From Gemmatimonadales bacterium (GTDB taxonomy: Bacteria; Gemmatimonadota; Glassbacteria; GWA2-58-10): a DNA stretch of 64,000 bases. The first letter of the stretch is position 1, and the number at the start of each line of letters is the position of its first letter. The position numbers and the translations under genes were made by a program. The notes under the pieces are model-generated. The model was not told the DNA's origin. It saw nothing but the letters and a program-made list of their open reading frames with translations, and did no database searches. Below, piece after piece: positions 25,832-57,207 of this stretch. The DNA is taken from positions 1 through 64,000 of the forward strand of contig JAJRTS010000070.1 in the NCBI GenBank assembly GCA_024278175.1, in the 5' to 3' direction.

Positions 25832-26074
25832 GAGACCTTTGAAAAATTGGACGACTGAATTGTTTTGAGGGAGTTTTTTCATCTCACTCATCTTTGTGAA
25901 TCAAAAGAGAATGCAGGGGTTGCTAATTATAACTACATGATCTGACCGAAAGATATGCCCCTTGATAAAAAGTTTTGGAAAAAGAGTGGGGGAGTGTGAG
26001 GGGAAGAGAAAAGAACCTTTTTAAAAAGGTTTTGTCTCTTCCCCTCACCATGCTTTGATTAAACCAAAGGTCTC
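25832..26074. mobile_element. MITE-like element, copy 1
   Basis: GAGACCTTTG...CAAAGGTCTC ends flanked by exact ATAATT direct repeats (25826-25831, 26075-26080); internal palindrome GAGGGGAAGAGAAAAGAACCTTTTTAAAAAGGTTTTGTCTCTTCCCCTC. Confidence 0.75.
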
Positions 26075-28220: not shown

Positions 28221-28269
28221 TTGCCGCGCGTAGAAACGTGTTGAATAAACACGTTTCTACGCGCGGCAA
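28221..28269. other. perfect 22-bp inverted repeat
   Basis: TTGCCGCGCGTAGAAACGTGTT-GAATA-AACACGTTTCTACGCGCGGCAA, 24 bp before the GH16 start. Confidence 0.85.
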
Positions 28270-36264: not shown

Positions 36265-37191
36265 TTACGCACGCCACGGACGCTTGCGCTCAAGCGGTTC
36301 ATCCAGCATCTTCCTGACAATCGCCACGTCGTCGCGTACCTGCCAGTCGAACATGCCGACGCAGATAAAGTCCGCGCCGCGGCGGAACGCGTGCGCGAAT
36401 CCCTCCGCGGGCCTGTCCCGTCCCGCGCCCAGTACCTTGAACGCGATCCAGGGCTTTTCCAGGTCGCTCATGTAGCTCTCAATTTCCGCCGGATCGCTCG
36501 ACAGGTAGCCCACCTTGTTGACCGTGTACATGTAAAAATCCGGTTCGATCCCGGCCTCCACCGTGGCCTTGATCGTCTCCAGCTTGTGCGCGCCCATCCC
36601 GCCCAGGATTCCGGTCTTTTTCATCCCCTCCACGTATTCGCCGATCAGCTCCACCTTGCCCTCGCTCACCGCCGTATCCGCCCGGCCACCGTGGAAATAG
36701 ATCCCCATCGCACCATTGTCCCGGGCCAGCCTGGCGTTTTCCACCGGGTCGCCCTGCTCGGGAGCGCTCTGGGCGATCCAGTTCAAGGTTCCGCCCATTT
36801 CTTTTTTGTACTTCGTGTAATGCTCGATGATGTGCGGGTCGCAACGCATCAGAGTGGTGTTGATTCCGTTGCGTTCGGCCAGTTGCCAGGTTTCCCAGAT
36901 TTTTTCGCTGTTGAAATAGCGCGTCATCAGCGCCGACTGGTAAAGCAGATCGCCGGCATGGGCGGAGCCTGAAATCAGGTTGCCGCCGATTATCATCCGG
37001 CTGATCCCGCGCCCCCCGAGTTTGCCGTGTTGCAGGCCTGTCACCGGTTCCTTACTTGTCTCCTGTGTTTCCCTGCGGGCGCCAATCTGGGCCAGCAGGG
37101 CCTGGTGTTCGAAACCCAGCCCGGCGGAAACTGCTGCCGACAGACCCAGCGAACGTTCGACAAATTTGCGGCGGTTCAGCTTATCTCCCAT
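36265..37191 (-). CDS. Tat-exported TIM-barrel-like protein, paralog B
   Basis: LNRRKFVERSLGLSAAVSAG; MIIGGNLISGSAHAGDLLYQS; WIAFKVLGAGRDRPAEGFAHAFRRGADFICVGMFDWQVRDDV. Confidence 0.7.
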   Translation of the reverse strand: MGDKLNRRKFVERSLGLSAAVSAGLGFEHQALLAQIGARRETQETSKEPVTGLQHGKLGGRGISRMIIGGNLISGSAHAGDLLYQSALMTRYFNSEKIWETWQLAERNGINTTLMRCDPHIIEHYTKYKKEMGGTLNWIAQSAPEQGDPVENARLARDNGAMGIYFHGGRADTAVSEGKVELIGEYVEGMKKTGILGGMGAHKLETIKATVEAGIEPDFYMYTVNKVGYLSSDPAEIESYMSDLEKPWIAFKVLGAGRDRPAEGFAHAFRRGADFICVGMFDWQVRDDVAIVRKMLDEPLERKRPWRA

Positions 37192-37345
37192 GGGACAGCC
37201 CTCCACTTGGAAAGAAAGAAACACTACCCCTGCAAATAACCTGATACCTAATTGTAAGGTATGTTACGCCTCGATTACAACATAATTATCATCACTCCGG
37301 AGTTTTTTTCTTCACCGCCGGTTCTGCTGATTTTGCAGCAGGCTC

Positions 37346-37445
37346 AACCAGCCGGCCGGCGCGCGCATCGCAAGATGCGCGCATCCCTCCCGGGATGCCG
37401 GTGCTTTTGGGCACCGGCGCCGGCCGGCGCGGGGCACCGCTGGTT
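37346..37445. other. nested palindromic four-way-junction structure (possible structured RNA or mobile palindrome)
   Basis: AACCAG:CTGGTT; CCGGCCGGC:GCCGGCCGG; GCGCGCATC-GCAA-GATGCGCGC; ATCCC-TCCC-GGGAT; GCCGGTGC-TTTTGG-GCACCGGC; lies between divergent genes. Confidence 0.7.
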
Positions 37446-37610
37446 TTCCCGGATTGCCGCAATCATCCGTTTTTTTCTTAACAATGCTGTCGATTGCTGT
37501 TATCATTTATGCGCTGCTGAAATACAGATCATCTCAATGCATTCTTCTTTTTTGTATAGAGGTCATGCTCAATCTCTTATCCGGCCGCGCTACGGCCGTG
37601 GAGGTGCCTG

Positions 37611-40600
37611 ATGCATAAAGCGTTATGCAGGTTGATACTTGTACTTGGAGTGTTTTTGCTCTCTGGCGCGGCGTCCGCCTGGAGCCGTCTTAACGTGTTC
37701 AACACGTTCGAGGACGCGGCGGAAATTGAGGCGCTGACAGTAACCGGCGCGGTGAAAGCAGTCCAGTCCAGCCGTTACTCTACCTGGAAGACGAATTCGC
37801 TGGAGGTGGAGTTTCCGGCCTCCGGTGGTGCTATCGAGCTGGGGGGAGTGCCCGGAGACTGGCGGGGGCAGAGTGCGCTGCTGGCGTTTGTCTGGAGCGG
37901 GCAGCCGTTTGAGCTGACAGTTGAAGTTACAGACCATGACGGCAACCGATACCGGAAAACGTTCGGGCTCAGAAGCGGAGCCAACCACATTCAGCTCGAC
38001 CTTCGCAAGCCCCAGACGCTGAACATGGCGAAAATGGAATCAGTAAAGATCTCCACGGATACGCCCGGGACAATCTATCTCGACTGCATTGCTCTTAACA
38101 CCTATAACAAGTTTCTGGAGCAGCGCGGGCGCTACGATTTCCAGTACAAGATGGACATCGAGACCCCGCATTTCGCGTGGGCCAATCCGCTCGATGGCGG
38201 TCCGCTGAACGTTTACGCGCTCAGCGGCGTAATCGACGGCCGGGCGATAATCGAGCTGGCCCAGCGCCTGGAGATAAACTACACCGCCACCACCATGGGT
38301 ATCCGCCAGGGGATGAATTATTACGGGTTCGGCGAGTTTTACGACGAGCGCCGGGGCGGACCGTCGCTGATTCACACCTATATCGCCGATGACCTGTATC
38401 ACGGCCCGGATTTCGATGTGATCCTCTGGCCGGCGCTCCAGCCTTGGGAGACGTATCCGCAGGAAGTCCGCGATGAAATCCGCCGTCAGGTGGAGGAAGA
38501 AGGCAAGGGCCTGGTGCTGATCTATCCGTTCACCGAGCGGGATGACGGGGCCGGGTTGTGGGACGTTTCTCCGTTGACCGAGGTTGGCAAGTACGTGCCT
38601 GTCTGGCCCGAGGACCAGGTGCAGCCGGATATGTCCGCAGGCGACAAAAGTCCCTGGAAAATCAGTGCCGAGCATTTTATCACCCGTGGCCTGGCGCTTG
38701 ATGCGTTGCCGCAGGGACAGATGGCGGTGCTGAGTTCCAAGCCTGCGGGCGATGTGCTTATCGAAACCGAAAACGGCACCCCGGTGCTGGCCGTTCGCCA
38801 GCTCGGCAAGGGCCGGGTGGCTGCGTTCGCCTACAGCCAGCGCGGGATGATTCCAGAAGTGAGCGATCTGTGGGAAACCGGGCTGCACTACGATTACTGG
38901 GACTACATGTGGTCGCTGGTGGCACGCGCTACGGTCTGGGCGGCCGGGCGCGAGCCGGGTGCGGCAATCGAATCGCTGGTGCGCAGCGGTGACCGGGCGC
39001 GGGTCACTCTGGCCGGCAACGTCCCGGCGGGCAAGCTCAGCGGACGGCTGATCGACAGCGATGGCGCACTGCTGAAAGAATTCGATGAGCCGGTTAAGGC
39101 AGGCGCGAAATCGGCCGGTTTGAAGCTGCCCGCGAACCTGCCCGGCGGGAAGAGTTTTCTCGATATCAGGTTGGTTGGCCCCGACGGTTCACTGGACTGG
39201 GCGACAACTGTCGTTGAGACGGAACCCCTTGTCCGTGTGTCCCGCCTGAAGCCCAGCGAAGACCGTGTTCAGCTTGGCGGGGAAGTGAGCGTCACTGTCA
39301 GCCTCAGATCAAGCCAGCGCCGGCCCTGCAAGTTAATCGCCGGTCTCTATGACAACTACGGACGCCTGCTGGACGAGCATGTGGAGCAACTCACCGTCAC
39401 CGGTGACGCCGAGCGTACACTGGTCTTCAGCAGCGCGGGAGCGGCCAGTCACCTGGCCGTGGTAAAGTGCCGGGTCGAGGTTGGGGGGATGGTGCAGGAC
39501 CGGGCGGAGGCGGAGGTGTTCGTGCTGCAAAAACGGGTCTGGGACGATTTCGACATCGTAATGTACCTGTTCGGTCCCAACCCGATGCCCGGGATCTGGC
39601 CGGTAATCGACCGTCAGTTGCAGCGGATGCACGTCACCACGCTCTCCTCGTACCCCGTGGACAACTGCAAGCACGCCAACTACATGGTCCAGGCCCAGAC
39701 GCGGGTCAGCGGGCAGGAGTCGCCCGACCGCGGCCCGGACCGCGAGTACTACGACGCGATGAAACACAAGTATCTCGAAACCGGCGACAAGAGCGTGCTG
39801 GTGCGCAAGTATTGTCTCAACGACCCGTCGTACAGGGAGCTGATGCGCGAGGAGCTCCAGCGGCTCAGCTCGCCCTGGGTCCCGTTCTCGCCGCTGAGCT
39901 ATTACGTGTACGAGGAACCGTCGCTGACAACCTACGGCGATGCGGTCGACATCTGTTTCAGCGAGCACTGCATGACCGCCATGCACCAGTGGCTCAAGGG
40001 CGAATACGGCACTCTGGAGGCGGTGAATAAGCAGTGGGGTACTGCGTTCAAGTCCTGGGACGATGTTGTTCCGGACGACTACAAAGAGGCCCGGGCGCGC
40101 GGTAACTATTCCTCCTGGGCCGACCATCGTACGTTCATGGAACGCACCTACGCCAACAGCTACAAAATCATCTACGAGGAACTGCGCAAGCTGGACCCCA
40201 ACGCTATCGTGCTCAACTCCGGGACCCAGGAGTCGGCCCCCCATAACGGCTGCGACTACAGCCTGCTCAACCAGTACACCCTGCACCTGAACGCCTATCA
40301 GTACGAGATCCACCGCAGCATGAACCCGGAAATTAAAATCTCCGGGGGTGCGGGCTACGGTGTGATCGGCAAGAGCGTGTTCCATAATTTTTACCAGAAC
40401 CTGTTCAAGGGCGCAAACGGCGGCCTGTACATCTTCTGGCAGTACTGCACCATAGACCCGGACCTGACGCTGAACCAGAGCGCGCTGGACATGGTGGAGG
40501 GTTTCGATGAGCTCCGCGGCCAGGGGATCGGCAAGCTGGTGGGGCTGGCGACGCCGGATAACAACGGGATCGCGGTGCACTATTCGTATCCCAGCATCCA

Positions 40601-41741
40601 CGGGAGCTGGATTGTCGATGGCGAGGTGAAAGACCGGGTGACCTACGACACCAGTCCCTCGTTCAACCGTTTTCAGGAGAATACCACCGGCTGGCTGGAA
40701 ATCCTTCGCGACTGCGGGCTCCAGTTCGACTTTATCGCCTACAGCCATCTGGAGGACGGCCAGTTGATCGAGAAGGGCTACGACACGTTCGTGATGCCGA
40801 TGAGCGTGGCGCTCAGCGACGAGGAGATCGACCAGATAGCGCGGTTCGTGCAGGCGGGCGGCACGGTTATCGCCGACGGGCTGCCGGGGGTGATGGACGA
40901 GCACTGCGCATTTAGAACCAACTCAAAGCTCCAGAAACTTTTCGGAATAAAAGCTGCAAAAAGTTCGGCCGCCGGCATTATCGCCGCCGACGGGGAGCCG
41001 AAACTGAAACTGGCGGGAGCAAAGTCGCTCAAGCCCGGCAAGGGCAAGCCGACCCTGCTGGTCAACCATTACGGGCAGGGCAAGGCGATTTTGCTCAACT
41101 ATTTCCATCACACCTACAGCCGGGACAAGCTGGACGGCACCAATGGCCCGGCCCTGGAGAACCTTCGCGCCGTGCTGGCCGAGGCCGGCAAGAGTCCGAA
41201 AATCAGCCTCACCGGTGCCGGCGGAGTGCCGGTGAGCGACTGCGAGCGTTACCTGTTCAACAACGGCAGCACACGTCTGCTGGGGCTGGTGCCGGATATG
41301 GGCCGCGCCCGGACCGAGCAGATAGAGGTCCGTCTGGACGGCGAGTACGCGATCTACGACGTGCGCGACAGGCGCTACCTCGGCAGCGGAGACCGTTTCC
41401 GCACCGAGATCGAGCCGGGCGTGCCGCGACTGTTCGCCTTCGTGGACGGCAGGGTCACCGGCCTGGAACTTCAGGCGCCGGCCACGGCCGGACTGGGCCA
41501 GGAAGTGGCGCTCAATTTTGACATCACCGGAGCCGCCGGCCTGCGCTCCGTGGCCTGCATCACTGTTACCGATCCAAGCGGCGAGGTACGCTCAATTTAT
41601 GGCGGCAACAGTGATATCGAAGGCTCATCGGGGGCGGCTTCTTTCCGCACGGCGCTCAACGATCCGGCCGGGCAGTGGCTGGTGTAGGTGCTGGAAACTG
41701 TCAGCGGAGAACGCAGCAGGCAGGTGATCAGGATCGAGTAA
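37611..41741 (+). CDS. large secreted GH42-like (beta-galactosidase-like) protein; in-frame TAG at 41685-41687 may truncate the last 17 residues
   Basis: TIM-barrel-like central region (EHCMTAMHQWLKGEYGTLEAVNKQWGTAFKSWDDV); after TAG the frame continues VLETVSGERSRQVIRIE-TAA, completing a typical C-terminal Ig-like strand. Confidence 0.75.
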
Positions 41742-57035: not shown

Positions 57036-57207
57036 TTTTTGTGTATCAAAAAAACAGGCCTGTTAATTGTAACTGTATGATCTTACTTAAAGATATGCCC
57101 CTTGATAAAAAGTTTTGGAAAAAGTGAGGGGGAGAGAAAAGAACCTTTTTAAAAAGGTTTTGTCTCTCCCCCTCACAATTCTTTCAATTTTTTGATTAAA
57201 GCAAAGG
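57036..57207. repeat. truncated/diverged copy of the 25832-26074 element
   Basis: GTTAATTGTAACTGTATGATCTTACTTAAAGATATGCCCCTTGATAAAAAGTTTTGGAAAAAG...GAGGGGGAGAGAAAAGAACCTTTTTAAAAAGGTTTTGTCTCTCCCCCTC; right end CAAAGGTTTC. Confidence 0.75.

Follow-up and report, generated by a model that had tools for sequence, protein, structure and literature searches.

A dispersed cloverleaf palindrome of Glassbacteria, probably maintained as a DNA structural site

Between two divergent genes of the window, the 64,000-nucleotide stretch of Gemmatimonadales DNA analysed here, lies a sequence whose letters can be drawn as a four-way junction, raising the question of whether it acts as an RNA or as DNA. A first-pass annotation of 37346-37445 offered two readings, a riboregulator of a flanking gene or a palindromic mobile unit that could be extruded as a cruciform, and all its letters and coordinates proved correct on re-check. 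The fold was confirmed as a closing stem and three hairpins joined with zero linker bases, foldable on both strands. The features of the locus are given below, where the ortholog is that of a sister species in the same genus (G001).

36265..37191, minus strand: left neighbour, 308 aa, with a Tat-signal-like start and no Pfam or NCBIfam match
37251..37280, minus strand: promoter-like TTGTAA-18-TACAAT between the cloverleaf and the left gene, identified by consensus alone and without clear conservation
37351..37428, no strand assigned: whole cloverleaf unit, a 10-bp closing stem around three linker-free hairpins; match to covariance model R2, E 2.9e-10
37351..37360, no strand assigned: closing stem, 5' side, GCCGGCCGGC; from the fold, identical in the ortholog
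37361..37382, no strand assigned: hairpin A, GCGCGCATC-GCAA-GATGCGCGC; from the fold and the family alignment
37383..37396, no strand assigned: hairpin B, ATCCC-TCCC-GGGAT; from the fold and the family alignment
37397..37418, no strand assigned: hairpin C, GCCGGTGC-TTTTGG-GCACCGGC; from the fold and the family alignment
37419..37428, no strand assigned: closing stem, 3' side, GCCGGCCGGC; from the fold, identical in the ortholog
37478..37506, plus strand: promoter-like TTAACA-17-TATCAT with a TG extension, between the cloverleaf and the right gene; kept as TTAACT-17-TATCAT in the ortholog
37611..41687, plus strand: right neighbour, 1358 aa, with GH42-type beta-galactosidase domains

The junction is more stable than shuffled sequence. 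RNAfold gave -84.2 kcal/mol for 131 nt of the plus strand (z -5.0), a value equalled by none of 200 shuffles, and the minus strand of the element formed the mirror structure (z -5.9). When 82 nt were folded as single-stranded DNA, the two strands reached -43.0 and -41.8 kcal/mol (z -7.0 and -6.7), so that RNA and DNA parameters, the check on both strands that the annotation had proposed, each yield the junction on either strand. In a scan for zero-linker three-hairpin junctions, the unit formed 32 Watson-Crick pairs, compared with at most 21 in 12 shuffled 64-kb windows; together with the folds, this bears out the junction of three hairpins without linkers. Since the closing stem and the arms have GC in common, the branch point is free to slide over two pairs at near-zero cost. 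The annotation had also described an outer stem, AACCAG:CTGGTT, and a fourth hairpin, GCGG-GGCA-CCGC; both are present in the letters and absent from the ortholog and the other copies, and the unit is therefore restricted to 37351-37428.

Searching for dispersed copies in the same genome, as had been suggested, showed that the unit is repeated. BLASTN against this genome (G000; 4.18 Mb, 113 contigs) returned two more copies with 74-77% identity and the same fold, and covariance models, R1 and then R2 built from a cleaner register, brought the total to eight sites, on C59 (the window), C47, C106, C74, C25, C32, C7 and C63, a count from a draft assembly in which copies may be missed. Relatives within the same family carry around 13 copies (G001), 25 (G002), 14 (G005) and one or two (G003), and the covariance-model search found none in G004, also of this family. 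Two shortened copies, from G002 and G003, are L061 1501-1573, which has lost one arm, and L053 1501-1559, which has short arms; both still form closed branched folds. Across 292 other genomes of the phylum, which is Gemmatimonadota in GTDB, no copy was found using strict filters with few candidates scored per genome, a setting in which weak copies could be missed, and phages, plasmids and viral contigs gave no cloverleaf match. Scanning a genome collection with the A-arm pattern retrieved 54 stretches, 19 of which belong to Glassbacteria RIFCSPLOWO2_12_FULL_58_11; among the 35 sites in other taxa, 12 were folded and none was a cloverleaf. The family has thus been found only in this Glassbacteria family, an uncultured lineage. 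Rfam returned no match to the unit at gathering or permissive thresholds, and a literature search for bacterial repeats shaped as cloverleaves or four-way junctions retrieved nothing matching. The repeat family is real and, as far as Rfam and the literature searched show, not listed before.

Two further repeats of the window are distinct from the cloverleaf. An unrelated palindrome, GTGAGGGG(A/G)AGAGAAAAGAACCTTTTTAAAAAGGTTTTGTCTCT(T/C)CCCCTCAC, occurs twice (25996-26048 and 57107-57193), nearly identical over ~53 bp, and forms a further family of dispersed repeats whose tip is AT-rich. Among the simple hairpins of the window, the longest perfect one lies at 28221-28269, a 22-bp inverted repeat with a 5-nt loop.

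Structure is conserved across the copies, whereas sequence varies. Every one of the 43 aligned copies forms a three-branch junction, and in 26 no junction base is left unpaired. What can be recognised from genus to genus is arm A (GCGCAT/ATGCGC), the best-conserved arm of the family, together with arm C (CxGTGC/GCACxG) and the inner closing stem; arm B is the most variable, free to change in both sequence and length (10-35 nt) with its pairing kept. In a 16-row alignment, in which the middle of long B arms was replaced by a short loop and the B arm counts by its base pairs only, 97.9% of cells are paired and 14 pairs show two-sided changes, distributed over all four helices. The covariation score was 0.277, compared with 0.075 after shuffling and at most 0.053 when partners were slid, figures that are not probabilities, as the 16 rows are mutually related. 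The annotation had named in advance, as a sign of RNA, compensatory change in at least three helices. Such changes were found, in every helix, yet they do not discriminate RNA from DNA because both strands fold equally well.

Evidence on strand, orientation, neighbourhood and promoters speaks against a strand-specific RNA. Over 57 copies, a set that includes three loci fetched twice, the difference between plus- and minus-strand folding energies averaged -0.03 kcal/mol, splitting 27 versus 29 (p 0.96), and G-T wobble pairs were roughly balanced between the two strands (37 versus 28). Where the flanking genes are in tandem, the unit lies along the direction of transcription in five cases and against it in eight. 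The neighbouring genes are functionally unrelated, encoding an amidohydrolase, a GFO/IDH/MocA protein, a heparinase-like protein, a DNA ligase, symporters, a methyltransferase and others, and no common function was found among them. A cis-regulatory RNA or riboswitch, expected in the leaders of related genes and in fixed orientation, does not fit such unrelated neighbours and random orientation. In the window, a predicted promoter stands between the copy and each of the two divergent genes; being upstream of both promoters, the unit would be in neither leader. Regulation of a flanking gene by RNA, the first of the two original readings, is accordingly disfavoured by neighbours, orientation, strand balance and promoter placement alike. 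An intrinsic terminator was considered as well, but no T run follows the unit, and the single scan match, which the ortholog lacks, falls inside the unit, at hairpin B.

A broader RNA role can also be envisaged, in which the transcribed unit would protect mRNA ends, act as an attenuator or serve as a small RNA. Many copies sit 15-80 nt past stop codons, distances that are approximate since genes at other loci were called by a simple codon-usage method, and this placement, like the strong covariation and the highly stable RNA folds, would suit such a role. The missing strand preference in stability and wobble pairs, the random gene orientation, the unrelated neighbours, the position of the window copy relative to the promoters and the lack of an Rfam match make it unlikely. 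RNA function is disfavoured, and the evidence points to DNA.

Comparison with the sister species shows how the unit is kept. Seven of the eight copies have an ortholog in G001 between the same neighbours. For the window copy, 65/66 aligned stem positions (98%) match, compared with identities of 53% in the loops and 48% in the 120-bp flanks. Read side by side, the four stems drawn for the unit agree with the ortholog in every letter and the differences fall in the loops, the ortholog carrying a GAA triloop where the window has the GCAA tetraloop. In the remaining pairs, stems are 91-100% identical and intergenic flanks 29-42%, higher where flanks enter genes. The arms are nearly unchanged between species while the surrounding DNA has drifted. 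One G001 copy, on C22, is missing from G000, where the syntenic gap on C2 measures 82 bp; in this empty site, 14 bases match the 3' closing stem and flank and may be left over from a deletion. The orthologous loci and this presence/absence locus together show that most copies are inherited in place, while some have been gained or lost. Exact insertion ends were sought in the flanks, which are too diverged, and were not found. An A-arm variant is shared by L060 and L063 (G001) and another by L046 and L047 (G000), while the sister-species orthologs are without it, a sign of concerted evolution; gene conversion between copies probably happens and could account for part of the stem conservation. 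For the window locus it is unlikely, because neither its B arm nor its closing stem recurs in any other copy read from this genome.

Whether the unit is still a mobile element is addressed by its ends. In G005 (L201-L210), the cloverleaf is the centre of a ~230-bp miniature inverted-repeat element (MITE) with 17-bp terminal inverted repeats, CCCGGATTATTCATRAA, and an imperfect YTAR target, and contigs often end in the MITE. Units in G002 have a weak CCCGG-type motif ahead of the closing stem and no terminal inverted repeats; in G000 and G001 neither terminal repeats nor a flank motif was found, and shared sequence ends at the closing stem. Two copies on G001:C62, separated by 2 kb, were considered as possibly enclosing a transposase; the enclosed gene is sulfatase-like by motif. 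A purely selfish, non-autonomous element of MITE or REP type, moved by a transposase in trans and keeping its stems only while active and by gene conversion, would explain the G005 context with its CCCGGATTATTCATRAA ends and YTAR target, the presence/absence locus, and the observation that dispersed copies within a genome are more alike than copies of other genera. Such an element, once dead, would not keep seven of eight copies orthologous with stems 91-100% identical, and the bare ends in G000 and G001 as well as the failure of Y1 and RAYT-like searches to find a matching transposase speak against it as well; we consider it rather improbable as a full account.

The second of the original readings held in part, as the unit is a dispersed palindrome with copies at many unrelated loci of the lineage; the REP/RAYT affiliation attached to it did not hold. 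REPs are 20-40-bp palindromes marked by a GTAG (or CGTC) tag that is conserved, and in a REP system a RAYT gene lies between two inverted REPs, usually with >100 copies per genome (PMC2817692, PMC3733652). The cloverleaf units span ~60-100 bp, carry no tag, number 8-25 copies per genome where beyond traces, and flank no RAYT. Y1-transposase matches were limited to IS200-type proteins and RAYT-like proteins scoring under the curated cut-off, no cloverleaf was found near the 12 matched loci, and the matches do not track the family, as G005 has copies and no match and G004 has matches and no copies. The RAYT-like Y1 proteins themselves (L129, L131, L132 and L133; 175-306 aa, from G001, G002 and G004) fall below the NCBIfam cut-off and adjoin no cloverleaf. 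That the unit is a REP/RAYT system proper would agree with its being palindromic, intergenic and multi-copy and with RAYT-like proteins in those three genomes. It is nevertheless very improbable given the missing GTAG tag at the unit ends, the absence of copies adjoining RAYT-like genes, the low scores, and the failure to see a RAYT-like protein in copy-bearing G000 and G005, set against one in G004, which has no copies.

The likeness to REPs, BIMEs and REPINs lies in being GC-rich, dispersed intergenic palindromes with arms kept complementary, and roles in supercoiling and mRNA stability have been proposed for these repeats (PMC2817692, PMC3116915, PMC3733652). The cloverleaf differs in being larger, with three hairpins and a closing stem, few copies and neither a GTAG nor a CGTC tag; it has no flanked transposase, and its copies are conserved at orthologous loci between species. 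It resembles bacterial MITEs in G005, where it sits mid-element between terminal inverted repeats, whereas units in the genus of the window and in G002 lack such repeats and the whole unit is the palindrome. The palindromic GC clusters of yeast mitochondria are likewise GC-rich and mobile with changes concentrated in the loops, yet they occur in other organisms, share no known sequence with the cloverleaf and are simpler palindromes, the commonest being 42 bp (PMC4478555); they are unrelated to it. Finally, structured RNAs in Rfam share the multi-helix junction with covariation, but none matches at or near the gathering score, and the cloverleaf has no strand preference.

Taken together, the window element is one copy of a dispersed intergenic ~60-100 bp palindrome specific to the Glassbacteria family, each strand of which can form a three-armed four-way junction; it was probably once mobile. 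Transposition or gene conversion would have spread the unit before it became fixed, and selection would now keep it as a DNA structural site. With less certainty, it may act as DNA by extruding as a cruciform, an action suggested by its symmetry, place and conservation. The window copy lies between two predicted divergent promoters, where negative supercoiling should accumulate, and a putative protein might bind the extruded unit, reading both arm sequence and junction shape. By analogy, the unit could serve as a topological or architectural site, like the BIMEs of enterobacteria, for which binding by gyrase, IHF or another nucleoid protein would be expected, and not as a transcript; the cloverleaf would thus work most like a BIME-type architectural palindrome, yet it is no REP by definition. 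More tentatively, it could be speculated that the chromosomal site is recognised as a built-in, near-immobile four-way junction, the extruded double cloverleaf being read by a Holliday-junction-type or architectural protein of Glassbacteria, with selection keeping it at fixed loci to sense supercoiling or to insulate.

Most short palindromic repeats of bacteria consist of one hairpin or a doublet and are linked to transposases already known. A repeat that makes a junction-perfect cloverleaf of either strand, is found in one family and keeps its arms almost to the letter at orthologous loci suggests selection on DNA shape. The repeat deserves listing in repeat libraries, lest it be mistaken for a riboswitch, and it offers a concrete test case for whether extruded DNA junctions can be functional chromosomal sites.
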